From Paramacrobiotus metropolitanus (Eukaryota; Tardigrada; Eutardigrada; Parachela; Macrobiotidae), in assembly GCF_019649055.1 (NCBI RefSeq), contig NW_026570451.1:1-64000 (forward strand): a stretch of DNA of 64,000 nt. The letters run 5' to 3'. Position 1 is the first letter of the stretch. Every line of letters begins with the position of its first letter. Made by a program: the position numbers and the translations under genes. A model generated the notes under the pieces. That model did not search any database and was not told the DNA's origin. It saw nothing but the letters and a program-made list of their open reading frames with translations. Below are positions 21,010 through 64,000 of this stretch, piece by piece.

Positions 21010-21134
21010 ATCTGAACCAATATCTCCACCCTCCGGAACGCCGACTGCGTGCACAACCTGTCGATCGCGGATCAGCACGAAAGCCGGCTGCAATAAAAAT
21101 GCTGATGAAAGGCGCCATTTAGAGATCACGTTAC

Positions 21135-26847: not shown

Positions 26848-28900
26848 TTATTTGCCAGCGGCGGCCTGTCCGAACCGCTCAGCGACATCCTTCCAGTTGA
26901 CAATCTTCCAGATCTCTTTGACATAGTCAGCGCGAACATTCTTGTACTGCAGATAATAGGCATGCTCCCATACATCGATGCCCAACAAGGGAACCAAACC
27001 TGCAATATCCAGTTCATGAAAAAACGGTAACTTCTAAGACCATTCTTCTCAGACCATTTCTATGCAATTTAAACAATACTTGAATTTTTAATAAATTGTA
27101 TAATAAAAGAAAACAACCGCATGATTTCACCAATTCCTGATCGACAAAGGGAACGAAAATGTCGCAAAGAATGCACGACAGTATTGCTTAAACAAAGGCA
27201 GATACACAAATTATGCATTTAAGGTTCAACACCAAATGAAACGGCATATTAGTCGGGAAAAATAAAAAGTTAACAACAACGAATATCTGAAAATTAAAAT
27301 AATATCACTAACTAGTAACTACAACGCTTTCTCGGCCTTGCGAATCCTACAATCACTTTTAAATAATTATTCAAATAGTTTTCCTTGATTTTAACCTGGA
27401 AGCGTTCCTCATACTTTGAGCTTACCGAGAGTGGGCTCCAGAGGATCCTGGTTGGCGCACTGTGCAATGGCCAGGCGCTTCATTTTGGGACAATATCAGC
27501 CACGCCCAACCCGATCCTTGAATGGCCGTCGCCTTCTCGCTCAACTTCTTCTTCATCGACTCAACATCCCCAAAATCCGTTTAATAGCAGCAGCCAGATC
27601 ACCTAGTACAAACCAAAAGAAGTATCGTACTATTTTAAGTTTGTAACTATAGCTAAGTGCATTTTCTTGAAGTTCGTCTTTTTAGAAGTACAATACAAGT
27701 ACTTTCTCGCATTCAATATGTACGCACTCACAGTATGTATCTCATATTAGATATGTCAAAACTTTAATTAGCTGATTAATTTTGACGGACAGCTACTAGC
27801 GTTAACTTAAAACAGAAGCACAGTGTTACTGATTAAATACTGAGTACTGCGAGTGTACGAGTATTCCTATTGAGAAAATTAATGGCGAACAGACCATAAC
27901 AAACCGAAGAAACGAATTATGTTTTAAAATTCCAAGTCAAAGCAACACGTCATTGAGATGGATCTGCATAGGAAGATGCAAAATCTAGTCAGGCCTACAG
28001 CTGTCAGGCAAAAACAACAGTATGTACAAAAAAAGACTTTACCTTCCGGCTGCTTTTGGCTGCATTCTTTGACAGGCGCGAGATTCTTCCAGAAAATACT
28101 GTGATTAATATGGCCGCCGCCGTTGAATTTCAGAGCGCCTTGCACCTCGATGGCCGTCTTTAAATCGCCTGCAAAATGTCGATTAATCCCCAACATTCTT
28201 TCCGTACGCGTAGCACAAATTAAAACATTATATAGGTATTAACTTTAGCAATTAATTTTTACAATCGACACTGACCGAGTCATGTGCCAGCCGATCCTGA
28301 TTTAAGAAAACGACAGCCAAAACTTACCCTCAGAAAAAAATTATTGTGGCTCATTACGACTAGTACTCGTATTCTCAAAATACCGAAAAAAGAATGATAA
28401 AGTTTTATGCACTATTCTGTTCTGTACGTCCTCCTTATAAATAATTTTAACAAATACAGTTAACATACGAACGAATCAGAAAAAAGTACCGTCTTTAATA
28501 AAGACGGTACGGAGTCTCAATAAAGACTCTTTATTGAGATTTTCTTTCCTACTTATTGCGTATTCTGCTAGGCGCGCAGACCTACGAGTATATTTCCTCA
28601 CACTGCAACTTCCCTATACTTATGTTCTGCAAATGTAATGTTTTGCCAACTTTTGCGGTTATAATATTGCTACTCGTACCTTTCTGCAGCGCTGTGGTTG
28701 CTTTTTCCTCGGCCGCATTCAGATTCTGCACATAGGTGGCATGGTGCTTCTGGTGGTGCAGCTTCATAATCTCCCCGGAAATCACCGGTTCCAAGGCATT
28801 GTAATCGTAGGGCAGATCCGGGAGGGTGTATTTGCTGCGGGATGCCATCACCCCCATCGCGCCATTGCTGGATGCATGGTTCAGAAACCCACCTGATTTC
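26848..28900 (-). CDS. SOD2: Manganese superoxide dismutase, copy 1
   Basis: Exons: about 28900-28680, 28168-28043, 27602-27426 and 26999-26848. The metal ligands are visible: His in [12 protein letters not shown], His in [12 protein letters not shown], and Asp and His in [23 protein letters not shown] and GSGWAWL are Mn-type features. The enzyme converts superoxide to peroxide and oxygen, normally in the mitochondrial matrix. The N-terminus reads [20 protein letters not shown]. In-frame ATGs at 28857 and 28848 would leave almost no targeting peptide, and a tiny upstream exon (ATGTTTTT at 28995 before GTAAGC) could supply MFL. Exon 3 lacks one G after AAACG and two G after GGCT, relative to copy 3 (177 against 180 bp), which breaks the frame. 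Copy 1 lies head-to-head with OPLAH. Confidence 0.85.
28486..28510. repeat. Perfect 25-bp palindrome
   Basis: GTACCGTCTTTA / TAAAGACGGTAC around a central A, in intron 1 of SOD copy 1. Confidence 0.95.
28515..28539. repeat. Perfect 25-bp palindrome, adjacent
   Basis: TCTCAATAAAGA / TCTTTATTGAGA around a central C, four bases after the previous palindrome. Confidence 0.95.
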
Positions 28901-28995
28901 CTGCGCAATTTAACACTGGATGGTTAGTTGGCTGATTCCACAACAGGTAAATGCATCGACCATCAAGTCTCGCACCAACAAGCTTACAAAAACAT

Positions 28996-32800: not shown

Positions 32801-35800
32801 CCGACTGCTGCCCGAATATTTTCCGCATATTTTCGGCGAGAAACGCAACGAGCCACTGGATATTTCCGCTCACGACAAGCGTTTGAGGAGCTGGCCAAAA
32901 CCGTTAACCAGTTCACGTCGCAGCAGGGAAAGCCAGGTATGGAGATGCAAACGGCATGCATGTCTGGCAATTTCCGTTGTCACTATGGAAGAGGAAAGCA
33001 AAATCTGATAATTAACAATACAAAATCAAGGATTTATAAAACTTTGTGATAGAACAATCGTACGTTTTATGATTCGACAGAGGGAAGATGATGAGAGACA
33101 AGTTGTGCTGGGCAAATCGTAGTGTAATGCCTCGGCAGTCCTGTAATGCAACTGCCATGCACTCCGATAAGCCTTCATATTAGTGGAGTTACTGAAAAGT
33201 TTCTAAGAAAATTATTAAGAATTTTTCTGTCAGTGTTTCATGTTGCTTAAAGCGTGGTAAATCACGAAGAAAACAGGAAATGTAGCATCCAGCGCACAAA
33301 GAGTACCTGCATTTTTTAAATAATTGTTTATAATTTTAGAAGCGCGATCGGTGGAAGAAATCGCGGAAGGATTCGTGGCCGTCGCCAACGAAGCCATGTC
33401 CCGTCCGATCCGCAACCTCACCCAAGCGCGCGGCTTCGACCCCTCTAACCACGTCCTCTCGTGTTTCGGCGGCGCCGGTGGTCAGCACGCCTGTGATGTG
33501 GCCCGTTCCTTGGGCATCAGTCGCGTTTTCGTCCACAAATACAGCAGTATTTTATCGGCGTACGGGATGGCGCTGGCCGATGTGGTCAGCGATGAAACGG
33601 AGCCCTACGGACAGGCCTTCACCCAGGAGAATTTTGCGGAGATAACCAAACGCATCGATAAACTGAAGGCATCCTGTAAAGAAAAATTGGAGGATGGATT
33701 CATCCGGAGCAGATCCGCTTCACGCCGTATCTGAATATGCGCTACGATCGGACGGATTGTGCGCTGATGAGTTATCCGCGGAGAAGGAGAAGGTGGAGTT
33801 TGGGCAGTTTTGACAGCCTTTACCAAGCAGTATGAGCGGAATTCGGGTTTACGCTGCCGGAGCGGAAGATCGTCGTGGATGATGTGCGGGTGCGGGCGGA
33901 AGCGCGGGCGATTCCGCTGGAGGAATTGGAGCTGGAAAAGGCCGATTCGGAACCGCCGGTTGAAAAGGTATGATCAAATCTGGGAGGTTTTCTACTATAA
34001 ATTTTTTTATTCATTCTTATATTATTAAATAATACAGACACAAAATTTTTGTGTTTGACGCTCTTTTATAGGCTCTCTAATTAGGATGTTTTTGGAACAT
34101 TATTTTCTGTATTTTCTTCAGTATTTCAGTATACAATTTAGCATCATACTTTGATTGATATATTTTCTTCGTATTTCAATATAATCTTTTAAGATAGATG
34201 CGTTTCCTGCAATGATTTATTAACTGATTATCTGTTCGTCATGATCAGAGAAAACTCATATAAAATAGAAACGTATGAGTTTTCTCACAAGATCGTAGGA
34301 ATGACATGAGTAGGGAAGCATCGTAGGCATCGTAGGAAACAGGTTTCCCTACGTTTAAAGTTGCAAAGGTGAAACGTAATTTTTATTTAAAACTGTCATC
34401 GGTCTTTTGGAAAAACCCTTCGTTTTGATGTTTTACTGTTTTTACCTGTATCGGAAGATCAATCGGGATAGTTTGCGAACGAATCATGACAGGCGTAACC
34501 GAGTGGTAGTAACTGCTTGTAACGGGCACATCGTAGCGTAATGTCTCAGATGAGGCATTTGGTCGGACTTAATTCAGCTGGTAAACACAAAATGCAGCAC
34601 AAAAGGAGGAAAATACGAAAAACGTTTACTAAAATGATTACGTACTATTTTTTTGACATTCCAACTACTTATTTTCAGTTAGAGCAGTTTCATATTTTCA
34701 GAGATTCATCATTACTGTACTGACACCATGACACCCTGCACTTGGAGAAATTTTGTACAGTATGAGCAGCACTGTACTTACTGTAGACAGGTGGATTTAA
34801 AGCCGATTGCGTTCAACCAACAGCCAGCAGTCTGCATGCAGTTGCAAGCCGTGTATGTGAGCAGTGAACGCAGTCGTACAACGTATGCGTGGCTGCACAG
34901 CTGAAACTTTCTCCGAGTGCAGGGTGTCAGTACAGTATGTTTTACTGTATGCCAGCGTATCAAAATTTTTAACCGTTCTGTCGTTATTTCGCAGACCGTC
35001 AAAGTTTACTTCGCGGAAGCAAAAGACTACAAAGATACCAACGTCTTACTCCTGTCGAAGCTGAAATCCGGGCACAAAATCGAGGGACCGGCCATTATTC
35101 TGGATGAAAACACGACGGTACTGATCAAACCCGACTGCACAGCCACCATTAACCCGCACGGCAGTATTGTGATCGATGTGCGGCGCAGCGATGTGAAGGG
35201 CGTCGATACCAAACTGGATCCCATCCAGCTGTCCATTTTCGGGCACCGTTTCATGAGTATCGCCGAACAGATGGGACGGGTGCTGCAGCGGACATCCATC
35301 AGCACCAATATCAAGGAGCGACTGGATTTCTCCTGTGCTCTGTTTGGACCGGATGGCGGACTGGTCAGCAATGCGCCGCATATCCCGGTGCACCTCGGTG
35401 CCATGCAGGTGTGTGCGGTTATTGATTTGACGTTTCAGTTTGCGATAGTGCCCAATTTGCCGATCAGCAGTTGTGATTGTGAGTTTAACAATATTCCGTT
35501 AACCAGGTTCTGATTTGTGACAACATGGAATATTTCGTAGAGTAATGGCTGTAAATTCTTAGAATGGCAATAAGGTTATATTAGATATGCGCTATAATCT
35601 AAACAGTGCAGTAAATTGACCTGAAACGAGCGGCTGATGCCGTTTTAAACTTAAAAATAAATGTCATTTTTTGGAAAGGTAATTTGTAACCATTTTTTGT
35701 AACCGTTTGATTTTCGAATGATTGTTACATTAAAATATTTTTTGCACCGGTTAGAAGAAACTGCAGTCTATTGTTCGTTTTAGGAAGCAGTGCAGTATCA

Positions 35801-38800
35801 GATGAACCAGTTAAAAGGGAACCTGCATCCCGGCGACGTGATTCTGAGCAATCATCCGGTGGCTGGAGGATCCCATTTGCCGGATTTGACGGTAATCACG
35901 CCGGTCTTTGAAGACGTTAATCGGTCGGGTGCGGCGCCGATATTCTTCGTCGCCAATCGTGGTCATCATGCCGACATCGGTGGTTTAACGCCTGGTTAGT
36001 GTTATATCCAGTATAGCAGATTATTCGTTTTTGGTTAATATTTAACAGCGATTTCAAAATGTTATGGCCCAATGTATGGCTTTTTAAAATAAGATTCAAA
36101 ATAATTTAAAATAAGATTTTTTTAAGTACGTTAATTTAAAAAAAAACCCGTACGTACGTTAGCACGTAGGCCTGACTTCGTCAGTACCAGTATGGATTTT
36201 TTCACTGATTGATTTGCAAATTCTAATAACATGTTTTTTTTTTAAAAAAACGATGCAGTAATGAGTCTAATGACTGGACATATTTTAGCGGTATACATGT
36301 AGTATCGTATTAAGAAAAAGCTGAAGCATCTCGAATTTTTTGCACTAATGAATAGTATAAGGAATTCTTCAATTTCGAAGATTTGAATGAAGGGAGAAGT
36401 AGTTTTTAAAATAACAGCCACTAGACTACGAATGACATCGAATTCTGCTGTTCTTTCATAGGATCTATGCCGCCCACAAGTACCACACTGGAGCAGGAAG
36501 GAGCCGTTTTCAAATGTTTTAAACTGGTGGATAAAGGCACATTTCAAGAAAAAGCCGTGATCGAGGCCCTCGAGAAACCAAAGGAGTATCCGGGCTGCAG
36601 TGGAACACGCAATTTGAATGATAATTTATCTGACTTGCACGCGCAGATTGCCGCGAATCAAAAAGGCATTGAACTCGGTAAACAACTGCTGTAAAGAAAT
36701 ACAAGTGAAATCCTTTATCAGAAATGTCGTAACAAAGCGGTTCTGTATGCTTTATTAATTACTAGTATAATGGCATAAAATTTTAAATTTTGGTATTATA
36801 TAAATTAATATAACCATTATTTCTTATAGTTTAATGAATTGCTAAAAAATATACTAATAGCTTAATAAATTTGATACTTCTGGTTATAGTTTATACTATC
36901 GCAAAATAAATATAATTTTAAAAAATAATTTCTGATTTATTAGTTCAGCTTATTATCGTTAATATTGCTTTACTAATATTTATAATGGTTATTGATTCGG
37001 AAATGTTATTATAGTTTTGGGATTAATCAAAGAGTACACTTCCGGTGGTGCAAGCCTACATGCAGTATATTCAGAGTCAAGCCGAAAACGCGGTCCGCGA
37101 TCTGCTGCGGCAAGTGGCACAGCAGGCCGAGAAGGACACCGGCTCCACTCGTTTATACGCTGAAGACCGCATGGATGACGGCAGCGCCATCCGGCTGACT
37201 ATTAGCATTGATAAGGATTCCGGGCAGTCGGGTGGAATTTCGAGGGCACCTCGCCGCAGGTGTGGGGCAATCTGAACGCCCCGCGCCATCACCCTGTCGG
37301 CCATTATCTACACGCTGCGCTGTATGGTGGAATACGAGATCCCGCTGAATCAGGGATGTCTGCAGCCGGTGAAGATCGTTATTCCCAAGCATTCTCTGCT
37401 GGATCCCCATGAAAATGCGGCTGTTGTCGGTCAGTGTACTGCACGTAATGATTACCTAGCTCCTGTTGTGCGCAGTTTTACGCTTTTATGGACAGTTCTT
37501 AGGTTTTTTAAAGAAGTATTCTTAATAAAAATGAAAACTTTTGCTCGAGGTTAAGCGTAGAAGATTTTAGCGGTAGTATTCTTATTTTGTGTGGTCAGGT
37601 TTTATTTATACTCAGATTGTATAGGAACCGGCAGCACTCACAAAAATGCATTATCTGGATGCTTTTTGTCACGCATTGCAGTGCATTGCGGTTTATTAAT
37701 GCTAGGCACGCTTTATTAAAGTGCAAGGTTTCGTAGAACAACGACAGTAAGGCTTACGCTCATGAGTCCTGCGTGTGCTAGCTCTTGAAATGAACCGATT
37801 GACTGTAATACGATTGCCATTTTGCAGCAGGCTATAATGTGATATTTTTGTAGTAATAATACACAAACTTTTCGTTTTACTTGACTGCTGCTGTTACCTG
37901 GCTGCCATTTTTTGTACCGGCCCGATTAAACTAAATTTTTAATGAATTATTTTTATCTGCAGTTTCCTCTTTCTGGGAGGAAATTTTATGTTTACAGATT
38001 GTAACTGTTTTTGGTATGATTTTGTTCGTAATTTTCATCGAACATATCGGCCAGATCCGCCTCGACGCGACAAAAAGTGCAAGTAAATAAACAACACAGC
38101 GCCAACGACAAATCGTGTACTTTGCAGGCGGAAATGTGCTAACGTCGCAGCGTGTGGTGGACGTGATCCTGAAAGCCTTCCAGAGGTGCGCCGCCTCTCA
38201 AGGCTGTATGAACAACATCACCTTCGGCAACGAGAAATTCGGGTATTACGAGACGGTGGCCGGCGGAGCGGTGCGGGACCCACGTGGCACGGAGCCTCCG
38301 GCAAGCACACCACATGACCAACACCGCATCACGGATCCAGAGATCCTGGAGAAGCGCTACCCGATTCTGCTGCGCACCTTCTGCTTGAATAAGGAGACGG
38401 GTGGAAAAGGGCAGTTTAACGGCGGCGACGGAGTGGTACGGGAGCTGGTGTTCCGGGCGGATATGACCTTGTCCATCTTATCGGAGAGGAGAGTCTTCCA
38501 GCCTTACGGACTGAAAGGTTCGTTCGATGTTTTCGAATTTAAACATTTTACAAATAGCGCGCAAAATGTAAAAAGTGTAATAACATATTATTAGCTTTTG
38601 AAGCTTTTCTGTTGAGTAACTAGTGTGGCATATTTGAAATTATATAAATGAGACAGAAAGCAAAATGAAATAAATTAATTTATTTCATCATTAAATAAAT
38701 CAGGGAATGAAATAAATCAGTACGCCAATTTTCTTTGCTTATAAAATAATAGGAATTATGGTATAGCAGATTATTTACTGTGGCGTACTTACGAGTATTT

Positions 38801-39965: not shown

Positions 39966-41689
39966 TTTCTAGTATTGTATGTATTTGGCAATTTTTTATT
40001 AACATGGTAGATGTTTAGTGTTCAAATGTTTAGTGTTTAGTGTTTGAAATTTGTGTTTGCTTGGACCGTATTAATAATAAAGTCTGCAAATTTTGTCACG
40101 CACACGCATAAATATTGATATAACTACACACAATTATTGATATTGAAAATTATTGATTAAATTTCGAAGGGAAGGTCTGATAATACCAGTGAGCCTCCTT
40201 TATATAATAGCTATGGGTTAATTTTTTGGAAAAAGCAATTTCGACTAACCCTAATTCTCCGTGGGTAAATAACACTAACAACAGAAGTACTAAATCTATT
40301 CGGATTCGAGCGTTAGAACCATATTTCGACGTAAGTTTTTGCATATAAAATATGGATGTATTTAAACAGATATAGGTATAAGTATGAGCACTGAACAGTA
40401 GGGAAATCGAAACAACTGCAAAATGTACACGAGCTGAAATTTCTCCAAAGCAGCGGTCAGTTCACAGGATGACAAACCGAAAACGGGTCATCGGGGCCGG
40501 TAGGGCATATGCAGTGTCATTATTGGTGATATTGGTTTTCTGGTCTTGATCTGGGTATTGCTTAATTTGCAGATTGAAGCATCAAAATTAAGCACTTTAG
40601 TGCAGTTCTTTGTAATGTGAACGAGTACGAATACACGACGCAAGTACGTTGTACATACTGTACACAGCATTTCTAAAGTTATTGATACGTTATTAGTTAT
40701 TAGTTATTGATACGTTAGAGCTTTATTATGGCAAGCCCGAGTGGACTAAAGCAGAGAAAGCACTAAACTTTCTCCGAAGTTTAACGAAGTGTGATAAAGG
40801 TCTAGTCTTTGCCCAAAATCGTTAAAGTTTGTATGCTTTTCTTTAAAAACTGAAATTGCAGTGTAAACTGGGAATAAATTGCAGTGTAAACATCCGACCC
40901 TCCCGGCCTCCGACCCTCCCGGCCTCCGACCCTCCCGGCCTCCGACCCTCCCGGCCTCCGACCCTCCCGGCCTCCGACCCTCCCGGCCTCCGACCCTCCC
41001 GGCCTCCGACCCTCCCGGCCTCCGACCCTCCAAGTCCCCACCCTGTTAGCGTCCCGGCCTCTTAGCTTTAGGGTTATCCGGTATACCGGGCTCCTTCCTT
41101 ATAGTATCATCATCCTTATAGTATATGTGACAACCCCCCCCATAACTTTGCAAGCTTCACGATTTTTCACAACTGTACAGTAGTTAGTTGTGAGATCACT
41201 TGAAACTAAAGTTTCGACTGAAATTCATCGATGCAGTTTGAAAAGTTTTGAAGCTTAGTTTAATTAACACAGAGTGTACATAAAAGTTTCAACTGTGACC
41301 CGGGTCAGTTAAAACAAAAGACTAAACAATTTCCAGCAAAATTAGTTGGGAACGAAAGTTAAGTTTCAAAAAGAGATTAAAGAATCTTGCGCATTAATGA
41401 AACTCTTTAATGAAATGACAAAATCGTTCATCAAGATCTCAAACTAAAGGCTATTGAAGAGTTCTCGCAAATCCTTAAAAAAACAGTTTGCTTTTGACCA
41501 CTCGGGCTTGCCATACTTTTGATGAACTCCACAGACCATATATAGATATAATACTGTAAAACGCCAAACTCAGTTCATATTTTTGGCATTTTACAGCACA
41601 GATAATACTGTATAATCTGGATTATTCAACCCTTGTTTTCGTGCGTGACAATCACAAACAGAAATGGTCAGCTATCTACGAAAAATCGA
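39966..41689. other. Intergenic with GC-rich minisatellite
   Basis: AT-rich sequence apart from the minisatellite at 40894-41032. The long ORFs there simply read the repeat (PASDPP- or GGREG-type periodic peptides). No gene is supported. Confidence 0.6.
40894..41032 (+). repeat. 16-bp minisatellite, 8 units plus a partial
   Basis: Identical tandem units ccgaccctcccggcct. The lack of divergence between units points to recent expansion. Confidence 0.95.
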
Positions 41690-41883
41690 GGTATTCTCCC
41701 TAAAAAAGGTGCAGCGCTATTTAGTAAGTGGCTAAGTGCCAAACATCTTTTCATGCATTCAAAATGTGGAACAGAAAATACTACTCTATGTACGTATTTT
41801 ACTAACTCGTAAGCTACAGTAGTGTCGACCGAGCGGTCCAAACCACTTCAAACAAACGCTGAAAATGCAACACAATGACAGAA

Positions 41884-42035
41884 TTATTTGCCAGCGGCGG
41901 CCTGTCTGAACCGCTCAGCAACATCCTTCCAGTTGACAATCTTCCAGATCTCTTTGACATAGTCAGCGCGAACATTCTTGTACTGTAGATAATAGGCATG
42001 CTCCCATACATCGATGCCCAGCAAGGGAACCGAAC
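41884..42035 (-). pseudogene. SOD2: Orphan last exon of Mn superoxide dismutase, copy 2
   Basis: This 152-bp exon is the same length as the last exons of copies 1 and 3. It encodes [20 protein letters not shown] to QAAAGK and a stop, with an intact acceptor and the Asp and His metal ligands. Two residues differ from copy 1 (GSVP for GLVP, RFRQ for RFGQ). No other SOD exon lies upstream. Homology outside the exon covers about 41690-42290. The intron side resembles copy 3, while the 3' flank (cttcaaacaaacgctg.aaatgcaacac) resembles copy 1. It is a partial duplicate and cannot make an enzyme. Confidence 0.85.
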
Positions 42036-43217
42036 CTGTAAGATCCAGTGTGCAGAATTACTGTACCGCCACTCGCAAGTCAAACTCCATGCAGCTTATT
42101 AAGAGTAGCAAAAAAATATTCTGTTCTCATGCATTAAAATAGAAAGAAATTACATCACTGTGCAAATTTCCGCACGACAAAATGGAATACAAATTTTGAC
42201 AAGAATGGACGAAAAAGTTGTACAAACAAAACCACTAAACGATTAACGGGCAAATGCCAGACGTAAGCGAAAATTATTCGTAATTTATTTAATAATAATG
42301 ATGTTCTCATTAAATTATGTTCTCATTACATTTAAGCGTATTATTAAGCGTTAAGTCGCGGACAAATTATGTTCTCATTAAATTTAAGCGAAGTGACCCG
42401 GTACATGGTACCAAATTCGCCTTTAATCAGATGTCTGCGTAATTACGTATGCCACAAAAATAAAGGCCAACCTGATGAAGATATGCCAGTATTTTATTGA
42501 ATGATCAAGCATGTGATTTTAGTGGTTAATGACGACATCAAATCTAAGCTGATACCAGAGTAAACAAACAATTATATCGATTTCCGTAGCAAGTCAGCAA
42601 CTGCTCCAACAATTACAATTAAAATGCTGTAAAGTATACAACGATTAGTGCATAAAATGAAAAGATTTTCACAGAATACATTCGAGAGAGGCGTAAGCAG
42701 CTGCATATTAACCTTTCATCTCCACAGTAGAGATAAATACCGCCGCTTTTATTAAAAACTACTACGTATTAGTACTCCAGTAGAGTCATGAAAATACTAG
42801 CAGGGACAATTCTGGTGGCTGATGGTAACTGCATCATAAATTAGTTACTACAAATAATAATAATATGTGTTATCTGCAAATCTTTATCGTATTGTTCAAG
42901 TACAGGTGTTTTGCGAAAGCACTCTTCTCATAACCGGTGTGGTACAATATTAATGCACCAAGAATTTGACAAAACTGCACTGAATTTCAATAAAAACATA
43001 AAAGCGCTAACGCGATTGCCGTACGTATATCCTAACTGAGCACAGCCCCGTCGCCGGCTATATATCGCCGGCCGGCTATGTCGCCGGCTCTGAAAATTGA
43101 TCTTCTGCGGAAAGACAAAGGAACATTGGAATAAGCAAAACAATTATTTTCATATGGTATGGTCAATGGGCATGGTGGAAACAATTAAAAAGTAAATTCT
43201 ACACTGTGGTGTAACCC

Positions 43218-43741: not shown

Positions 43742-45172
43742 CTATTAAATTATGTTTTTTATGCTTCCAGAAGCACATGTACAAGCACAAACCCGTAAGG
43801 TTAGCTGTCGGTTGCTCATTGGTCATAAGCGTAGTATGTAATATTTAATATAATTATATACGCTTGCAGTTATTAATCAGGTGGCTAAAGTATTTTGTCT
43901 GTTGGTGCATGTGTTTTGTTGTTGTATTTTGTCTGGTACATATGTCAATATCTGTATTGACATTAATGACAGACATAAACAAAGAAGCGCTTAATTCATA
44001 CGCAGCGCCTGGCTACGTAGTAGTTGGAACCACTGGAACTTCCGGGATTACTTTAGCCGGCTGTTCGGGTTGCTGACGCAGTGACGCTGTTCCTCTCTCA
44101 TCTGTCGGTTGCAGTTTTGTATATTTTTTGTGATTACCGGTAAAGCTGTGGTATGGTGGCTATCCGAGTCCAGTCGTCGACACACCATGAACAAGAATGT
44201 TGCCATGAACAAGTCGGCGTTGCCGATGGTTGGTTAATTGTATATTTGGAAACATTGAGAGTGTGAATTTTTTATTATAAGCTACAGCTTGCATATACAA
44301 GTGAGTATAAATCAGCGAATAAAATATTGTACACATATGACATTGATTAATTTTGTGTGTAAAACTTTTGAGAATGCTGACAACAGTATTGTATAACCGA
44401 CTGCAGATGAGTGGTGGCACTATGCAGCCCAGAGATACCAATTGCAACACGGGCATATTTTGCTCTGACGACCATGAGAAGATATTACGTAACATTAAGT
44501 TATGTTAGCAAACAACTAAACCAACAAAAAGGTCACAATGGATTCCCTAGTGGGTTGGAAAAGTTCACTGGTAACGCTCACAATATAGCATCAGAGTGAT
44601 AACCCACAATAACGTGTCAGCACGATACAGACTACCGTGGCAATAGTGGCAGTACTGGGATGCGTGCATCAGCTATTCGAAATTCTGAAGGTAATAAGGG
44701 CATCCAACATCTTTGTAAGAAGCAGATTGTGGAACTGTACATTGAAGTATATAACAATTCCATCGACATACTGAAGGTTTAGCTTTTACCGACTGTGCTG
44801 AAGGCAAGCAGCTCGCATTAGGCCAAGCTTGCTACCGAGACGTTCTAGAACGCTCAAGAAGTAAGTAGACAGCGAACACAAAGAAATACTGTAGAAACCT
44901 GTCGAATTTCTGCTCCGATGCGGGTCATTTCGAAAACTCCTATTCATTAGACCCACTGACTCACATAATGTTATCTCAAACATAGTTATCATCATATTCA
45001 TCAGATGATTCAGATCCGCGTTCTCTACAAAATCTGACCAATATTGACATGGTCCTGAAACTTGTCAGACATAATTCGCCTTCGTTTACCATCAACGGAT
45101 GATCTTTCAGGACTGTTTGAACAAGAACAAATTGGTGAGTCGTTCGGCTGTAATTTGCTCTTTTCTCTCATA

Positions 45173-48100
45173 ATGTTATTTGTTTATGGAACGCCGTTAT
45201 TTTTTCGTCATTTTGGCTTGGAAGCTCGATGTTCCAATTACGGCAATACAGTATTGGTTAAAAGAGACAGCGGCGAATGGTGGCTGGGATACGTTCAAGA
45301 CATTAATGGAGATCTGTTCTTTATTAACTTCGATAGCAGCACAGCCGGCGCTTCATGGATCCATACTCGCCATATTTGGCCACACGATTATTTCGAAGGA
45401 GGCAGGTCGGTTTATGTGGGTCAGCGCGTGCAAGTGGCGGTGCGCAGCGAACCCACTGGGCCGCTAATATTTCGGCCAGGCAGAATTGCCTTTAAGCCCC
45501 TGCAAAAACACTCTATATGCTGGAATGTAAAGTGGCCGGATGATCCCTTAGCCGACGATAATTTCACCAACTGCAAATTTGTCCACGAGTCCCAAATTGT
45601 CGCTGAGTTGCCGCCAGCGGACGGGGTGTGTTTTTATCGAAATGCAACGTTTTGTTACAAGAAATACGTCATACCTTTCGAGCAAGCTTATTTGATAAAA
45701 AACCTGGACGAAATGTCGGCATGCCTTCGTAGTGCGCCCGTCCTTCGAATACGCTGTTGCGTTGGGCTGATTTCGGAATTAGATATTTTGTACAGTTCGG
45801 AGTGGATTTTGCCGCCTTTGTAATTACCGTGGGATGCAACGCAAAGGTGGCAAGGATATTATTTGCTCTTCTACTTCTAGTGAAGATACCCTAAAGGTCG
45901 CTTGTGAAAGCCTTCTAGCCACTCAACCTCCGGCAAGACCCGAAATGGCAACTTCGACCTACAGCTGCCACGGTAACATTACATACTACAGAATTTTGAA
46001 TATGGCATGTTCCATTAGTTTTTACCTTTTAGAAGATCTGCAGTCATTTGATGGCATTTTAAATTTGACTCAGTATCCCACTTTACGGTTGCGGTACAAA
46101 AAATTGATACTACTATGATTACTCATATAAATACCACGCAGTTCGCAGAAAACCGCAAACTAATATGCAGTTTCGAATCTTTTATTGACGCTCAAGAATA
46201 ATCCAACAAAAACTCCCAAAAAGACTAAGGCTATATGCCAAAGCTATATAAAAACATATAAAAACTAAAGCTAAGATTTCTGTATAAAACAGATACGATC
46301 GCGAGTATGTGTTGTGGATTGGCCAACTTTTAGATAATGGAAGAAAGGTACAGGCAAAATGCATGGTATTAACTAGGACCGTGCTCTAGGAGCACAAAAC
46401 GAATGAAGGAATATTTCTTGAAGGAATACCCATTTTTCTGTATTTCCGAGGACGGTCCTGTGTTAACACATACCCACCCATATATGTTTAATACGGGCAC
46501 ACCCCCACCCACTATCGACGGCATAAGCATAAGTTTAGTGCCGCATATAACTGGCAGATTTTGCACTTGTACGTACGCACTTGTATTTCGATTATGCTAA
46601 CACGTACAGGAAGCTACAATCAACTGAAAGTCATATTAAAATCTGTCCACTAGTAATCGGCCAGCGATAAATTCTGCTTAGATGCCCGTAATCATCATTG
46701 CATCATTATGCCGTGATATGGAAATAGTTTATCGCCAGCAACTCCAGTGATCTGTCCCTACAAAAGATGGCATTTTCCAGGTTTTAGCTTTTGTCCGGGC
46801 CGTCCCAGTATGCACACGGGTGCGTTTTGCCAAATAATTCTTAGAAATAATTTTGTTCGCAATGCTGCACCTCTACGGCTCTACCGGCACGATTCCGATA
46901 GGGCGAATTGCAAAACAAAAATCATTCGAGCCTGTTCTGGCCACGGCCTGTGGAATGGTAGTGCCAATTCCTGTGAAATGTTTTTGGACCGCGAGATGTC
47001 AGAACTATGAGAAGGCCATGCGTAGTATAGAATAAGCTACTATAGATTTTTACCACGCTAGTGATATCATGTTCAATAGTTCACAAGATTCACTAACCAG
47101 GAACGTTCACAGATTACAATACTGATGGCTTCGGAATTGCCGACCTTCCTCATCCCATTTTGGTTGCTGTTTTCCTTCATTTACATGCACGTGTCCAAGG
47201 AAGGATCCACAGGTTGGTCAACAACATTTATGCCTTTCAGGATCTGCTTTCTTGCAAGTACAGCAAAATCTCCTATATACAGTAAGAGGTTAAATGAACT
47301 TACCTCCATGGTACGCCGCCGTTTTATATGTATACGTATGTACATGTAGTGTACATATGTAGTACTATGTACCGTATAATTGGATGGTTAAGTTACAATT
47401 AACAATGTTAATTGATGTTAATGTCAGCTGGAAGATGTGTACTCTGGTTTTTCCCCTTTCGCCGTGTGTAGGCAATTACCTGTGTTGCATGGTGGCGCTC
47501 CGAGTCGAGGGTAGGTACAAAGTGGGCCAAGTTTTAAAACTTTTAAAAACAAAATTAATAATATATAGTTTTGACAGTGATTTTTCAAAACGCGGTTTTA
47601 AGGTTTTAGCAGTTTTTAAAAATAAATAATATATAGTTTTGACAGTGATTTGTCGAAAAGTGGTTTTAAGGTTTTAGCAGTTTTTAAAAATAAAATTAAT
47701 AATATATAGTTTCGACAGTGATTTTTCAAAACGCGGTTTTAGGGTTTTAGCAGTTTTTAAAAATAAAACTATTAATAAATAGTTTTGATAGTGATTTTTG
47801 AAAAAGCGGTTTTAAGGTTTTAGCAGTTTTTAAAAATAAAACTATTAATATATAGTTTTGACAGTGATTTGTCGAAAAGTGGTTTTAAGGTTCTAGCAGT
47901 TTTTAAAAATAAATAATATATAGTTTTGACAGTGATTTTTGAAAAAGCGGTTTCAAGGTTTTAACAATTTTTTATAATATATGGTTTTGAGAGTGTTTTT
48001 ATTGAAATGAGGTTTTAAGGTTTTAACAGTTTTTAATAACAAAATTAAGAATATAGAGTTTTGACAGTGATTTTTCAGAAATGGTTTTGAGGTTTTAACA

Positions 48101-51100
48101 GTTTTAATAAAAAATTAATGATATTCGCTTTTGACAGATATCTTTTAGACATTGGTTTAAAGGTTTAAACAGTTTCTAATAATAAATGCATAACATGACT
48201 GGGTATTTCGAGAAGAGATTTTGAGGTTCTAACAATTTTTAATAATGAGACTTTTAATATATATACTTGTTGTTTTTGACATTAATGCGGAAAATCAGTT
48301 CGGCTCACAAGTCAGCACACAGCTCCCGGCTTTCGTTGTCGGCAGATTTGTGCAATATTTGAAGGTTCGTTTCTAACCATAAGGTAAAATATTCTATAGA
48401 AGTATTCTCGTAGCGTGTGTGTATTGGTTGTTTGATTTTGCTCCGATACCTTTTCAAAAAGTTGTTGGAGTGCATTTCATCAAAAGTATGGCTTCGCATC
48501 TGCTTTCCGCAGTTTTTAGTTTTTATTTTACAAAACTAGCAGACCCCGCGCAAATTGCGCGGAATAAGTCCGCGAAGGATTACTACCTTTTCATCACTAA
48601 ACTCAAAACTATAAAATAACGATTACAAATGTAATTTTAATGAGCGAAACTTAGTACAATTTATTTTATTTCCACTGGTGAATGTTTTAATGGCTTAAAG
48701 TCTCGTAGATTCGTTGGCTCAGATTACGGAATAACGTAAGCGTAGAAATTTGAAAGTTGCCGTTTCCATGTGTACCTCGTAGTTCTAGCTACAGACAGTA
48801 AATAAATATTAAATAAATAAATTCAAAGATCCACGTCTGCCGCTCCTGATTTCCGGCAGCATTTTCCTGATTGGCGCAGGCGTCCCGTTACAGTACCTTT
48901 TATATGTACCACAATCACTGCGGAGAGCTGGCATTGTCCAACTTCCCGTGTTTTATTTTGTTTTTGTTAGGGAATCATATATAAAAAAAATATTCAAAAA
49001 ATATAATCAAAATTGGCGTGCTTCTCACGTCAAATTTTTGGATGTCGGATCAAAGCGTTGGAATTTATAACAAAATTAAGTCGCTTAATTTCTGCAAAGG
49101 TTACTGGTACAAATTCTAAATGGAATTTTAAATTTCATAGATGATTTTCATAAAAAGCTTTAAAAGCAACAACAATTTTCATGACAATTGTAGTAACATA
49201 ATAATTAGGTCAACCCTTTCCTTTTAAATTTTTTGAAAAGCAGAAGGGACAAATCGCTTAAACACTCGCGCTCGGAGCAAAATTTCCCGCCATCCCTGTG
49301 AATTTTCCGTGTTTTAATGAGTCGGTACATCACGCGCCCGGCTCACTGTTACCACAGACTGTATTTTCCGCCATTTTGAACTCCAAATCTGTTCTTGACT
49401 CCGTAATAACAATCTGATTCCAGATTCCAGTTTTTGACCTACGACCACCGCTACTGCCCACGCTTAATAATAAAAAAAACCAAAATGTAGAAAATATCCA
49501 AGATGACTGACCGACAATTCCTACTGACCACTGACCAATTACATACACTGGACGACAAAAAGAAGTTGATGAGGTGCGACCGCACACTGGCCGGTCGATT
49601 TCAACTTCTTTTCCTCGTCCATTGTAACTATTACAGTGTTTTGCAAATCGCAATACCGTTCCTTCCCGGCCTCCCTTACCCTTTGTACGCTCTTTCGCCA
49701 TGGCTTTGAAGCTCTGAAGGAGCAAATAAATTAAACAAATTTATAGTATCCCAACCCCGACCGCCCCCCCCCACAAAATAGCGTCCCCTTCCGAAGGCCT
49801 TGCACAAATTTTGAACTTGTAATTGGACACTAATCGGTATCCTAATTGGTAAAATACGGTACCGTAACTCTGCGAGTGTATTAAAAGCTGCCAGAACCAA
49901 AACCACTTTGGGAGGCGACTACTTTATCTTGAGAATTTTGAGCCGTTCGTAATGGACCGCTGTGGAGTCTTTCGTAATAGCCTTTTTTAAACTTCATTTG
50001 CTTTTTGAAAATTACTTTTTAGAAAATTTACTGATTCAGGGCTATCACCACAGAGCCATAACTGTAATGGCTGTTGTGAATTGTGGTGTGCTAACGAACC
50101 TGATAGCGAAATAAGTATTTAAGCAAATGCATTGTTCGCATTAGCATAGCCTCTCGCACTCGAAGTGGCAGTTAAAGCGTTAACTGGTTTTTGACGTTCC
50201 CGTAGGTTTTGCATGTTAAGTTTTTGAATTTTTTCTCAAAACTGGTTTTGGTTTTCACAAAAGTGACTTTTTTGGGCTCATCTACAGGCTGTACTTTGCG
50301 TTATCGAATGATATACAGAGACCTAAGTTTCGCCTGCTGTGTCGCTCAGAAAAGGGAGACAGACACGATTTCTGTGCACCTTCTTATTCTTTTATTATTT
50401 TACAAAATGAGCAATAAAGAAAAGTTTTTTATGAATAATGTTTTCCATATGCATTCCCGTTTTTTATCAAACATTCTAAATATGCTGAACTCTGAATGCA
50501 TGCCAGTTAATCAACGGTCCGAGTTAGAACTACTCGTACAACATGTCTCAAAAGAAAAGGTTTTACAATGACATACTGTGTTGTCGAGTCAACTTGGCAC
50601 CTTTTTTACAGTGAGTCCTATCCGCTTAACGTATAAGTAGGTATAACTCGCTGTATCAAAAGGTGTCAAGTTGACTCGACAACACAATGCTATCCTAAAG
50701 GCTAAAACCAAGCAAGTACTCGTACATCTATTCACTAATGTCATCAAGTATACGAGCTTGCAGTTTGCTCACTGGACAGTGTTGATATCTCATGGTCAGT
50801 TAGTGATTTTGTGGAAAGAAACAACAACAGCCCAATTTCGAGCAGTTGCTCATGAAATTTAAAATCAACTGCTCTTGCAGTTAACTGTATTTTATTTCTC
50901 AAAAAATTGATTTACCGGTGCCAACGAGCCGGTTCCGGCAAAGCTAGCTCCGGTACAGCATTCATACTACTGTATATGTATACTGAAACCCAGAAAATAC
51001 TAGCAATTTCTGCGATCTGAAACGATAAGTGATAATCGTAAGCACTTTAAGGAAGTAACTACTAAAATATGGTTGTAATTATTTGTGTTTGCTCACATAG

Positions 51101-54100
51101 TGAATTTCAATGGCCGACTTAATTTAAATTAAATTATATTGTTCGAATATTAGTAGAAGAAAATTTTGTTTAAATACAACTGCCTACTCCGTAAGAAATT
51201 AAAATTTAAGTATTCTAGAAAAACTCTAGTTGTGGTTATATTTTCATGATGCAGCAGGCTGCAACTAACTGTAAGTTTAACTGGTGAGCGTAGCTACTAG
51301 CTAGGTAGTTGCCATTTCAATACCAGGTTTGAATTATTTAAGGATTCGAGGGAATGATTTGCAATCGATATAAAAAATCTGCTATCGAATTTCACGCGAA
51401 TCAGATGTGCGGAGTAAGCTTTTTCGCTTCTTCGCCAGACACGGCCACTAGAATGTAAGGACTTCTTTACAATATTAGTAAATATTGCTAGAACGGTAAA
51501 ACCTATACGTAGCTAAAAATCACTTTCAAGGCTATATTAATAATTCTATTATTAAAACCTGCTAAAATCTTAAAACCGCTTTTTAAAAATCACTGTCAAA
51601 ACTATATATTATTATTTTTTATTTTTAAAAACTGCTAAAACCTTAAAACCGCTTTTTGAAAAATCACTTTCAAAACTATATATTAATAGTTTTATTTTTA
51701 AATACTGCTAAAACCTTAAAACCGCTTTTTGAAAAATCACTGTCAAAACTATATATTATTTATTTTATTTTTAGAAACTGCTAAAACCTTAAAACCACTT
51801 TTCGAAAAATCACGGTCAAAACTATATATTATTAATTTTATTTTTAAAAGTTTTAAAAGTTTTAAAAGTTTTAAAAGTTTTAAAAGTTTTAAAGGTTTTA
51901 CAGGTTTTACAGGTTTTACAGGTTTTACAGGTTTTACAGGTTTTAAAGGTTTTAAAGGTTTTAAAGGTTTTAAAGGTTTTAAAGGTTTTAAAGGTTTTAA
52001 AAGTTTTAAGACTTGGCCCACTTTGTACCTACAGTGTCAACTGGGACCGGGCCACAACGGAAAATTAGGAATTTCTCATGACTTAGCTGGGCCAAAACTG
52101 ACTACGCGTTGACCAGTTAATAAAAACCGCGCAAAAAGTTTTGGACTGTAATAAGATGGTACGAAATACGAATACAAGTATACAAGTATCGGTTGCACTA
52201 GCTGTTGTTGGGATAATCGAGGTGTTGAATAATAATTGGAAGCATTGAAATCTTTTTAAATTTGAATTTTTTTTATCGAATTGATAATTTTATTTTCTGA
52301 ATTAATTGCGCACCTTTCGTGTATATAAAATGGGCTTCTTTAATGATACAATATGCATAGCTCGTAAGTGAACCGCATATTAGCACTGGTGACCTTTCGG
52401 CGTTTCGCGCTTTATGTCTTGAGAATACAAGGCATTCCTCAAATGAGTGCAGCGAAATGTCACCCTCCACAGGTGTCCGGGTGCGCCTCGGGCACCCACG
52501 TTCAGTGCTTGCGTGCTGTGAATTTATGCGTTCTGTACGTATTTTGTACGTAGTTGACAGCAACTGCCACGTAGTAAGATTTCGTTCTGTATGTTTTTGC
52601 CAAGCTTCCAAGCTTGGAAAATTTAGCAGTACTCACCCTGCAGAATCACGGAATGCGCATGAGCGCCAGAAAATCGGAAACCGATTCTTCAATAAAATTG
52701 CGCTTTCGCACTGTTGGAGTTCATTGCTCCGCCGAAATCTAGGACGTTATTCAGTAAACTAAGCCTAAAATTATTTTATTAAACCGGCCGTTTACCACAA
52801 GAAATACGGAGTCGAAGTCGAAGCTGTTTTTGGTAATTAGTTAGAAGCATATCGTACGACTGTCTTCCAGGCTGGAGATGATAATTATGTTTTGTAGAAA
52901 ACAGGCGCGTACTGGTTATGTTTTTGCAGGGTATGCATGCTGTGGCACCTAATGCTGCCGGAACACCTCGTCACTAGGAACGTCTTAGTTGATATCGCCG
53001 TCGAAATATATGATACGCTAAACTCCCTCTGGAGCGACACTTACAGTCTCACCATGGTACTCGACCAAATGATTACCAAGCACACGAAAACGCTTACCCT
53101 TGCCGATTTCGGTGGCAGAGGGGAATTCGAAATACGGGCACACACGACACTGGAAGTGCTCCTTGCCAAAGGGATCAAAGTACCAATGATTATTATCAAA
53201 AACTGTGCGAATGCGAATGGGGAACTAGTAAAGAATGCAGTGGGAAGTGGAAATTACGAATGCGAAAACTTTTCAAAGCTGATGGCCGTTTGTGATCAGC
53301 TGTTGATAGTGAATCACGAATTTACTGTTCAAACGTTTTTCCGCGAACCCGCATTATCTGTATTATCTGTTGGACAGCCACAAGCACTTCCAGAGCCGGA
53401 ACAGAGGTTTCTACGACCTCGTTGCGACGACAAAGATTATCGGGTCGTTGCAATCAACCGACTCATTTTACACTCAGCAGAAACAAGTGACCAGCACGTG
53501 CGGCTTTTCTTACTGGCGGTCAATAACAGTTATCCACCTATAAGCCACTTCGTCTACGATAAAGTGGCAGTTATATACCAGCGTTGGCTGCAGACTTTGG
53601 TTTACCCGGAAGACTGGGCCGCAGTTCGAAATTTTCTTAACCTGTGAGTACCGTTGTTTGACTTCAATAAAGTGCATTCTAAAGGGAAAATAGATTTGAA
53701 AATGAATTGGTCGTAGTCATTGTCTCTTGACCTTTAAAGTTTTGATACGAATGCGATGTATTAGTGGTCTAAGGTTATAAAGGGTAGTTCATATTTATAT
53801 TGTTCTTGTAGTATTGAGGCGCGCTGTTACAATATTGAGGCGCGCTGTTACAAACAACCAAATCTTTTTCTAGAAAATGGAGTGGTCAGCCTGAATATTG
53901 TATTCAGGCTGACCACTCCATTTTCTAGCAAAACATTTGGTTGTTTGCTAAATTTGGTTCCTTCTTTGCAAGTACAGTGTTGCGGTATCGAGCAATGCAC
54001 TGGAGTCCTGCACTCGATAAGTCTTCAATCTTTCAGGCTACGCCCATTTCTGCCGATTTCCATAGAGTTTTATTTGCACAGTATTCCAGCCTGTTTGCCT

Positions 54101-59089: not shown

Positions 59090-61700
59090 TTACAATCCGA
59101 TATCGTAGTTAGCTTTGCCATCCACGTAGGCGCTCTTGATGAACGGCACCATGATTTCCGACGGAAAGACGATGTCGGCGATGGCCGGCTCCTTCAGCAT
59201 CTTCTGCATCCAGGCGTGCAGTTTAGGATAGTCGCGCTCCATCTTCAGATCGACACTGCGCACTTCACACACCGGCGCGATACGTTCGAACCACGGCCAA
59301 ATCATCACGTCCACGAAACCCATCTTGTCGCCTGCAGATAACAACGAAGTTATAGAACGACAAAAACTGGGAACGAATAACTTGAATGTAACGTGTACAT
59401 GCATGAGAATCTAATTCAACCAACAGAAATTAATCCATGTAAACTAATACTCAGATATTATAGATTCATTTATTTATTTATTTTTGGGACAGAAATCAAT
59501 TCAGTTATTGGCTCATCAAAACCGACGTACAGTACAAGAAAACTGAAAAGTCAACAGAACTGTTTATCTAAAAAATTAAAAGAATCTGAAAGTCTAAAAA
59601 TTAAAAGGTAAATCGCGCAAAAATAAGATCAGAATAAATCTGTGAATATACGATAGAAATGAAAGAACAGGATGCAACTCGAACGGGAACAGTGCTCACA
59701 GATACGTTCACAACGCTTACCTGCGAAATATTGACCAGTCAATGATTCCTCCACTTCTTTCAGGCCCTTTTTCAGCTCCTCGACTTTCTCTTTGTCACCC
59801 TTAGCGCCAACCGCGTTCAAATTGTTGATAAACTATAACACAGATCAAATAAATCGAAATAATAATTAAATAACCTGAAAAACGGAGGAAGATATGCCGG
59901 CGCAATAATGTCGCATTCAAGTTCTGTCGACGGAAAAAGTTCGCATACCTATACAGTATACTCTGTACACCACGATATTATACAGATTACAGAATACTCT
60001 GTAATAACGTAAAAGCACGACGAATAGATTAACCGTAAAATTTCAGTCAGGAAGTTCACTAGAAAAAATAGTATTCAACGAGATGTTTATAAAAGTGAGT
60101 TACAATAGCAAGAATTAATTTTCTAATGCTGATAATCATTCACAAAGAATTTCTTTCGATACGGCAAATGTTTTAAAACAGAAAAGTTTATTCATCATTC
60201 GTTAGAATGATACCTTTTGAGTAATGACTTCGATAGCCACCTTCTGACGAGCCTTTTCGTATTCATCTTTCGGCAACAGTTTCGGCTCATTGGGGAAATG
60301 CTCATCGACATACTCGGCGACAATCAGCGACTCGAAGACCGGTTGCGGCTTCCCGGGCTCGTGCAGCGTCGGCACCTTGCCCAGTGGGTTGTGATGGGCC
60401 ATGTACCATTCCGGCTTCTCCGTCAGGTTGATGTTCACAATTTCGTATCTGCAGCGATAACAATAACTAAACAAAAACATCAGTCCAACACGCCGGCATT
60501 CTTGGAAATCCGCAACGAAATAACAACATTAATACGAAAATAACATTTTCTAGTGCTACGTATGACTAGTAATATAAATTTTATATAAATTTGCTGCCAT
60601 GTGACGGAATATTAGTACACAAAACAGAAAGCATTACTGTACTGATGAGAATTGAAAATATGCGGGAGAAAGTGTAAAACAATGAGTGGGTACAGTATAG
60701 TACCTGCATGCCACTGTTCAAGAAACAAATAGAAGTATCCGAAATTATTTAAAAAAATAATATACCTAACATTTCCAATACATACATTCATATGTACAAG
60801 GTACATAAGTTACTTTAGCATTCACTAATAATTACGTGTATTACAATTCAGTTATACGAGTAATATGCGCACACTTACGGGATTTTTTTTATGTTCAGCG
60901 TCAAACGAGCCCGTTCAGCGTGTGGACAAAAGCGGTTGCTAAAGAGACACAGTTGCTTAGCGTCCAGCGTTGGTTTCTGCGAACCTACAACCACCAAGCA
61001 TGAAAATGATTCTAAGATGCTGCGGAAAGAATTCTGGAACGTTTGGAATTCATGTCAGCAGTTTACCGGTTGCATAGTGTGCCGGTTCCGCGAATTGTTT
61101 CAAAATATCCCCCAAAGCATCTTGCACCGTGGATCCGGAGTCATTCTCCTTAAAAAATCTGATCCCCAGGACAGCCTCTGTCTGGCGATGGCATACAACG
61201 TATGCCGGCTGCAAGAAAAAAATTGATGACTAGTCTTATTGTTAGTATTACCAGGGAAAACTGGGAATCGGCCTTTAACGCGCTTCTAGGAGCAGTCCAT
61301 ATATTACGTACGCAATAAACCAGGGACGGAAGGGTGCCAATAATGTCACAGCAGTGACAGCACCATAAGTGGAATATGTCGGATATTAGAGAATAGGGTC
61401 AAAATTTTTCCGAAAATCTGCGCACGTGATTTTTAGACCGTCCCTTAACAGTTTATCATGGCGGTATGCACTTACAATACGCGTGACACCATATCGCTCA
61501 CAATCAGCAACACCGTCTGGGTAGTCCAGGAATTCAGGGTACTGAAAATCCACAGTAAACTTCTCCGTGAAGTGCATCTTATTCGATACCCAAATATCAA
61601 ACATTTTGGGACCACCACGGCGACCACGCAGACCGGATGTTGTACGAGGATCGTTTTTGGATGGTAAGAATGTGATTACGTTCACTGCCAATTTGACCAT
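59090..61700 (-). CDS. GSTO: Thioredoxin-like / glutathione S-transferase omega fusion (GSTO-B)
   Basis: Six exons: 61700-61476, 61208-61067, 60984-60879, 60448-60214, 59832-59721 and 59331-59090. The sum is 1,062 bp, exactly 353 codons plus stop, with consistent phases and GT..AG borders. Residues about 1-120 resemble a thioredoxin fold: VNVITFLPSK, then DGVADCERYGVTRIPAYVV with the cis-Pro after the intron. No CxxC motif is seen. The omega GST follows: KQLCLFSNRFCPHAERARL with the active-site Cys, NPLGKVPTLHEPGK, ESLIVAEYVDEHFP, IWPWFERI, and the end NYDIGL. It would act as a cytosolic glutathione-dependent thiol transferase. The extra domain is not part of usual omega GSTs, which are about 240 residues. 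A shorter start inside exon 2 has no ATG in a suitable place. Confidence 0.85.
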
Positions 61701-63160
61701 TTTCCGATAATATTAGTCTCGCTCAATCTTCAACTCCCTGCAGAGATACCGTTAGCTGAACTTCGCTCTACAAAAGGGAAAAAGGGAAATCTGCTCCTCG
61801 GGCAACAAAAAATTACAATCAGTCAGCACGTTAAAGGATCATAGGAAGCCGCCATCGAACTTACAGAAAGCACGCAGGCTATTTATCAAATGAGAATCCA
61901 CGATTATTCAGCTTCGGCATGTGATAAAAGCGATCGGCTAGTAAATCCACACTGAACACAGGCTGTTCTGTCAAAGTACGGTGGTAAAGATATTAAAATA
62001 TTGTAAATAACCGGAATATCCGTTATTATGGCTAAAAGTCCTAAAACGGAAGCATCTCAAAAAATGATGAATGAGATCGAAAATGCTGGAGCATGGTAAA
62101 AAACCAGCCTACAGCAAAATGCCACTGACCCGAAGCGTCGATCGGTGCTAGTGGCAGTCTGGGTTTGTCCGACAATGCAAGATTCGTGACTCGATAGCAG
62201 TGACCAGTGTTGGCCCGTCTTACAACTTCGGCTCCCGGCCCGTTTCCGTCCCGTAAACTAGCCAGAACGGGACCGTCTCCCGTTAAATCCCGGCCCGTAT
62301 ATCTGCCATAGACTTAGTATGGCGGTTCACGTCCCGGCCCGTCCCGTTGGAAAGCTCAAACCGGACCCGTTTTCCGTAGTCGGCTCCGACCCGTAAAAGT
62401 TAGCCAACACTGGCAGTGACCGTACTTAATTGGCGGTCTGGCCGTGAAATACCATGCATGTGCCGGTATGCTTTCTCGTACATACAGTCGTGCTACAGTA
62501 CTGTATGTCGGTGTGCATACTCGTACTGTACTTACATAGATTTGATCAAAACATTTGCTTGGAAGTGAAAAACATTTGGTTGTAAATAAAAGCATTTGTC
62601 TGTAAAAAAAAACATTGTTTGTAACATTTGATTGGAAATTAAAAAGCATTTCTTTTTTTATTATTTGTTTGCAAAACGTCTGCGCGATTGGTACACCATA
62701 AGTTACAGCAGCTTTTCGTTTCAAAAACTCTGGTTTAATCCAATGCACACGAAAAAAAAATAATATTTATATGTCGATTGTGGGAGTGTAACAATTATTA
62801 CTCTTCAGTGAACGGAATAGCAGAACTTGCAGCAAGAACACTATCTTTTTCCTTTTTAGCTGCAACACTCATACTCTGGATTCTGTTACTGTACTTACTA
62901 ACCGGTAGATCAAATTCTGCATCTCGCAATATCGCACATGACAATCAACACCCGAAATATTCATATCCTGCACGAATTACGATGGATACAGTCATACCGA
63001 TACCCGAAAAAGGTGCAGATTTATTAGTATTTGACCAGTGGTGACCAGCATGTTTATGCCACTCATTATGTGGAAGGAAAGTACTACGGATTTAAGCCAT
63101 TATCAGCCACAGCGGTTTAATTAAACCAATCAAACAATGGAACTGCACACTAAATCAGAA
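61701..63160. other. Intergenic with a hAT MITE
   Basis: Besides the MITE at 62205-62412 there is a 22-codon ORF at about 62027-62095 (MAKSPKTEASQKMMNEIENA) that ends near a GT donor and could be a first exon on the plus strand, but nothing follows it. The open frame 62778-63044 has a hydrophobic stretch but no ATG. Confidence 0.45.
62205..62412. mobile_element. hAT-type MITE, 208 bp
   Basis: Termini CAGTGTTGGC / GCCAACACTG, flanked by the exact 8-bp duplication GCAGTGAC at 62197-62204 and 62413-62420. The interior has repeated cccggcccgt strings and no coding sequence. It is a different family from the MITE at 57.7 kb. Confidence 0.88.
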
Positions 63161-64000
63161 TTATTTGCCAGCGGCAGCCTGTCCGAACCGCTCAGCGACA
63201 TCCTTCCAGTTGACAATCTTCCGGATCTCCTTCACATAGTCAGCGCGAACATTCTTGTACTGTAGATAATAGGCATGCTCCCATACATCGATGCCCAGCA
63301 AGGGAACCAAACCTGTAAGATCCAGTTGACAGAATTGCCGCAACTCGCAAGTCAATCTCCATGCAGCTTTATTAAGAGTAGCAAAAAATATATGACTGTA
63401 CTGTTCGCATGCGTTCGCGTTAAAATAAAGAAAAATCCCATCACTGCGCGCATTTCCCCACGATAAAATAGAACACAAATTTCGACAAGAATGGACGGAG
63501 AAGTTGTACAAACAAAACGACTAAATCATTAACGGGCGAGACGCAACGGAAAATTATTCACGAATTAATAAAAACGAAATGTAAAACACTTCTCTCAGTA
63601 CTTAAAATTAGTACAGTACGTATCTTATACTAAAGTTCTTTCTAAAACTTGCAGTCTAAGCATTTAATTGTTTTGTAACTCACAGTCAGTGTACGGATAA
63701 GTGCAGCAATTACAATTAGTGCAGTAGAGGAAGAATATTTTTACAAGTTAATTTAAAAGTTTTAAAATTTAACTTTGTAAAATTTATCATTTTTTTAGCT
63801 TACCGAGAGTGGGTTCCAGTGGATCCTGGTTGGCGCACTGTGCAATGGCCAGGCGCTTCATTTTCGGACAATATCCCAGCCATGCCCATCCCGATCCTTG
63901 TACGGCTGTCGCCTTTTCGCTCAGCTTCTTCTTCGTCGACTCAACATCTCCGAAATCCCGTTTAATGGCAGCGGCAAGATCACCTAAAACCAACCGAAAA
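63161..64000 (-). CDS. SOD2: Manganese superoxide dismutase, copy 3 (5' part outside window)
   Basis: Two exons are inside the window: 63983-63804 ([20 protein letters not shown], then [20 protein letters not shown] and [12 protein letters not shown]) and 63312-63161 ([20 protein letters not shown], ending QAAAGK). The Asp and His metal ligands in DVWEHAY are intact and both exons are open, unlike exon 3 of copy 1. Exons with the first two metal-binding histidines should lie to the right of the window. One change from copies 1 and 2 is EIRKIV for EIWKIV. It pairs with GSTO-B as copy 1 pairs with GSTO-A. Confidence 0.88.

Follow-up and report, generated by a model that had tools for sequence, protein, structure and literature searches.

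The window analyzed here, a stretch of 64,000 nucleotides, contains two related omega-class GST loci on the minus strand. One, GSTO-B (61700-59090), is the main subject of this analysis; the other, its paralogue GSTO-A (18892-21087), consists of five exon-like blocks that match GSTO-B exons 2-6. Exon 1 of GSTO-B (61700-61476), recognized by its open frame, its donor, GTAAGTGC, and its coding-frame score, supplies the start codon and residues 1-75. Exon 2 (61208-61067) encodes residues 76-122 and the first base of codon 123, including an IPAYVV segment, and completes the stretch of about 130 residues that precedes the GST, which we call the leader. The GST itself begins in exon 3 (60984-60879), which carries the active-site motif RFCPHAER with Cys142. 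The remainder of its N-terminal, thioredoxin-fold domain lies in exon 4 (60448-60214), together with the glutathione-site residues described below. Exon 5 (59832-59721) encodes the first part of the helical C-terminal domain, and exon 6 (59331-59090) continues that domain, with the Pfam GST_C match, to the end of the protein and the stop codon. Spliced together, the exons give 1062 nt, corresponding to 353 amino acids and a stop. All five introns are GT..AG, and the exons start in phases 0, 0, 1, 2, 0, and 1. Translation would begin at 61700, where the first in-frame ATG past a stop occurs, with four codons between the two. The uninterrupted 353-codon frame with clean phases that had been claimed for these six exons was therefore recovered in full, and the predicted gene model on 61700-59090, which is of animal type, is sound.

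From about residue 132 to the C terminus, the deduced protein is an ordinary omega-class GST, an assignment based on its Pfam domains, its match to human GSTO1, and the position of Cys142. Pfam domains GST_N_3 (PF13417; residues 136-212, E 7.8e-16) and GST_C (PF00043; residues 247-322, E 7.7e-10) both scored over their curated cut-offs. A PDB sequence search with the 353-residue protein, which returned 119 distinct sequences at an E cut-off of 0.001, matched residues 132-331 to human GSTO1 (PDB 1eem; E 2.5e-37); among the best 60 of these 119 matches, the top 11 all carry an omega GST label. The alignment runs over almost the whole human enzyme. It places Cys142 opposite C32, which PMC3621891 describes as catalytic and as bonding to glutathione in a mixed disulfide, and K169, V183, E197, and S198 opposite GSTO1 K59, V72, E85, and S86, glutathione-binding positions as given in PMC4906895. 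The two proteins thus have the catalytic cysteine and glutathione-site residues in common, but they differ in two respects: the active site here reads CPH instead of CPF, and about 130 residues stand before the GST, whereas the 1eem match starts at residue 22 of 241. The original prediction had described the part behind the leader as a complete omega GST; indeed, it has both GST domains and a GSTO1-like active-site cysteine and is complete to the C terminus.

The leader probably belongs to the GST gene, because neither exon 2 nor exon 3 contains an in-frame ATG and because exon 2 has a homologous counterpart in GSTO-A. Methionines occur in the 353-residue protein at positions 1, 33, and 42, and the next is found only at 174. 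Initiation within intron 2 or within exon 3 was considered and ruled out, since the sequence from the nearest in-frame stop to exon 3 is devoid of an ATG. Together, the lack of methionine between 42 and 174 and the lack of an ATG between that stop and exon 3 imply that a complete GST needs exon 1 or another upstream exon. Initiation at Met33 or Met42 would leave a shorter leader, not remove it.

The exon 2 peptide aligns over its full length with the product of GSTO-A 21087-20949, with 16 identities in 46-47 residues. The alignment score was equalled by none of 5000 shuffles, whether local or global, confirming that the homologous exon proposed for GSTO-A is real. The two exons have identical start and end phases, and hydrophobic positions are conserved between the paralogues. 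A comparison of the two copies over exons 2, 3, 5, and 6, with exon 4 left out, gave a dN/dS of approximately 0.43 for exon 2, a value that is only rough since dS is 1.6, and 0.12, 0.16, and 0.15 for exons 3, 5, and 6. By this comparison, exon 2 has evolved as protein under purifying constraint, looser than in the enzyme part. The homology and the dN/dS ratio imply that exon 2 was in the gene before the copies diverged. The further claim that the whole architecture predates the duplication thus holds in part: it is supported for exon 2 and not for exon 1, which has no counterpart in GSTO-A, a locus that is itself frameshifted.

The GSTO-A block that corresponds to exon 4 (20023-19794) is shorter than its GSTO-B counterpart by three bases that keep the frame and by two that shift it. 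As a result, the spliced GSTO-A frame reads wrongly across the following exon and is ended by a stop codon in the final one. Directly upstream of GSTO-A, in the position expected for exon 1, is a fragment of the DNA polymerase delta small subunit, POLD2 (21139-21471, minus strand), identified by Pfam DNA_pol_D_N (PF18018; E 1.2e-29) at residues 7-104 of open frame 20881-21471 on the minus strand. The two-base frameshift and the POLD2 fragment at the exon 1 position lead us to conclude that GSTO-A is probably a pseudogene and not a working gene, although the frameshift may be an assembly error instead of a true one. The POLD2 fragment and GSTO-A exon 2 both fall within a single uninterrupted open frame of 196 codons (20884-21471, minus strand), which makes a read-through chimera of the two conceivable. 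A short open piece further upstream, near 21702-21560, may be the first exon of POLD2, broken by a frame change, judging from the human protein.

A tblastn search with the full protein found no counterpart of exon 1 elsewhere in the window, and no homologue of it was identified in viral contigs or prokaryotic genomes either, which counts against this exon. Between the upstream superoxide dismutase (SOD) gene and exon 2, three candidate first exons end at a phase-0 GTAAG or GTGAG donor, with 22, 38, and 75 codons. Exon 1, with its GTAAGT donor, is the longest of them and adjoins exon 2. Counting both strands (128,000 bases), the window holds three ATG-started open stretches of at least 70 codons ending in phase 0 at such a donor, exon 1 included. 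Exon 1 has a codon score of 0.56 in frame, whereas its two remaining frames score -25.2 and -25.9; among 469 stop-free stretches taken from outside the known genes, 5.8% reach the in-frame score. For exon 2, the corresponding scores are 1.29 in frame against -18.0 and -9.6, and 6.7% of 1385 non-genic stop-free stretches do as well. The codon-score test is weak, because non-genic stretches reach the score of exon 1 and because exon 3, an undoubted GST exon, scores only -3.7. These figures bear on the possibility that the true transcript joins another first exon to exon 2, giving a short leader, and that exon 1 is a chance open frame. The two shorter candidates, 62964-62899 (22 codons) and 62649-62536 (38 codons), can likewise be spliced to exon 2 in phase and so count against the 353-residue model, as does the share of stop-free stretches that match the coding score of exon 1. 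However, exon 1 is the longest candidate, runs in frame into its donor next to exon 2, and scores far lower in its other two frames, and we consider a different first exon quite improbable.

The original prediction held that residues 1-120 are thioredoxin-like, which would set two thioredoxin folds in tandem. This label could not be sustained at that strength: the leader gave no meaningful Pfam, NCBIfam, or PDB match, its profile scores are near chance, and the assignment rests on one 14-residue motif. Specifically, residues 1-127 matched no Pfam or NCBIfam family, thioredoxin families included, up to E 10, and the sole match of sub-segment 45-121, to DUF1525 (E 0.22), falls far short of the cut-off. 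A PDB search with the leader gave three matches with E values from 0.37 to 2, one to a ribosomal protein and two to helical repeats that are designed or fused; we take all three as chance. A search with residues 45-117 gave none. We also built a thioredoxin profile from 79 of 80 bacterial loci, all TrxA relatives, one locus being left out because its frame was not found by the extraction rule. Under two settings, the leader scored -1.0 or 0.8 bits against this profile, values reached by 105 or 49 of 2000 shuffles and by 41 or 20 of 824 window frames. Profile-profile comparison of the leader with thioredoxin gave a probability of 1.7%, and 14 of 200 shuffles scored as high. As a positive control, the GST's own N-terminal thioredoxin fold scored below the leader in that comparison. 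Because a real thioredoxin fold was missed too, the test refutes nothing, and the negative profile result is weak both for this reason and because the profile contains only bacterial TrxA relatives.

That the leader is a true divergent thioredoxin-like domain ahead of the GST's own thioredoxin fold is therefore possible but unproven. In both profile tests, the best-scoring place is DGVADCERYGVTRIPAYVV, with ERYGVTRIPA as the aligned segment, and its counterpart in thioredoxin is the helix and the cis-proline strand; shuffles score as well, but the position of the match on the cis-proline motif is suggestive. Past this segment, the order fits by eye a strand, turn, strand, and helix. The leader cysteines, at 67 and 81 only, leave it without a CxxC, the redox pair of an active thioredoxin, as had been noted for the first domain, and this too would fit a redox-inactive fold. 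Set against these points are the chance-level profile scores and the lack of a Pfam, NCBIfam, or meaningful PDB match. Structure prediction of exon 1 on its own gave a mean pLDDT of 39.1, with 75 of 75 residues below 50; on the face of it this weighs against a fold, although the prediction says nothing either way. On balance, we regard the tandem-fold interpretation as tentative and somewhat unlikely.

Alternatively, the leader might be a targeting or disordered extension, as in some other GSTs, and not a folded domain. Residues 1-45 contain 8 K+R against 2 D+E, so that the leader may have a targeting role. N-terminal extensions, targeting or not, are described for plant cysteine GSTs (PMC4138524), and the extension of Clonorchis sinensis GSTo2 is, as presented in PMC4906895, apparently unstructured. 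However, the purifying constraint on exon 2 and its conserved hydrophobic positions exceed the needs of a cleaved presequence. Nor was any stretch of the leader hydrophobic enough for a signal peptide or membrane anchor, the maximum mean hydropathy over 19 residues being 0.58. We judge a purely targeting or disordered leader unlikely.

The interpretation we favor, and consider reasonably probable, is that the gene encodes a 353-residue omega-class GST in an intact spliced frame with a leader of about 130 residues encoded by two exons, the second of them shared with GSTO-A, and that the leader is a lineage-specific element affecting binding, packing, or location. By analogy with GSTO1, Cys142 in the C-terminal part would be joined to glutathione in a mixed disulfide, and the enzyme would act as a thioltransferase or dehydroascorbate reductase. 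The leader would have been added in this lineage by two extra 5' exons, without a catalytic cysteine pair, and would most likely act on partner binding, dimer packing, or the location of the enzyme; a divergent, redox-inactive thioredoxin-like domain is one fold that it could adopt. In protein disulfide isomerases, non-catalytic thioredoxin domains serve as substrate- or partner-binding modules. A stronger version of the model, in which the expressed 353-residue enzyme has two tandem thioredoxin folds, the first of them a redox-inactive module that binds substrates or partners for the thioltransferase, appears to us doubtful.

Cysteine GSTs with N-terminal extensions have been described (PMC4138524, PMC4906895), so that a leader as such is not new; the unusual part is its length and the possible second fold. 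C. sinensis GSTo2 is also an omega GST with added N-terminal residues, but it has 223 residues in all as reported in PMC4906895. Tandem GST units exist as well: in the 471-residue chain of thiol-dependent reductase 1 (PDB 4ags), two stretches are matched by the GST of the 353-residue protein. That chain consists of two GST-like units, whereas the leader here is unlike a GST N-terminal domain. An internal duplication of this domain was examined as the origin of the leader and ruled out, as the leader's score of 26 against the GST part was reached by 1389 of 2000 shuffles. Pattern searches for relatives of the leader gave 19 matches in viral contigs and 43 in prokaryotic genomes, none of which was confirmed; such non-animal collections are little informative here. 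No thioredoxin-omega GST fusion in an animal was found in the literature covered, which comprised titles and abstract openings with most subscription journals missing.

Omega GSTs catalyze redox and thiol-transfer reactions, and those compared here are roughly 220-250 residues long. An additional 130-residue module, if conserved, would mean that the omega class can gain a second domain through the addition of exons. If the leader proved to be a silent thioredoxin fold, it would provide a test case for a non-catalytic thioredoxin domain steering a glutathione-dependent reductase; if it is merely a leader exon pair, it would be an ordinary lineage-specific extension.

Other features surround the two GST loci. 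Three related stretches (26674-27618, 41677-42279, and 63040-63999) show 84%-88% pairwise DNA identity and include Fe/Mn superoxide dismutase sequence, and an N-terminal SOD exon lies at 28585-28923. That SOD and omega GST copies are found near each other twice suggests that they arose by block duplication. Between the GST copies, at 30892-38591 on the plus strand, is a 5-oxoprolinase-like gene with Hydantoinase A and B domains, a component of the glutathione cycle. An integrase core domain (PF24764, E 2.5e-25) at 11461-11874 on the plus strand marks a mobile-element remnant or gene. Long open frames form two pairs, 1541-2218 (minus) with 52898-53644 (plus) and 4146-4940 (minus) with 45059-45820 (plus), whose members resemble each other at the DNA level (about 75% and 71%, respectively), with no Pfam match at E 0.01 in either pair. 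Scans for structural RNAs gave no Rfam match and no tRNA. Finally, short direct repeat arrays at 47541-48263 and 51473-51861 match each other in inverted orientation.
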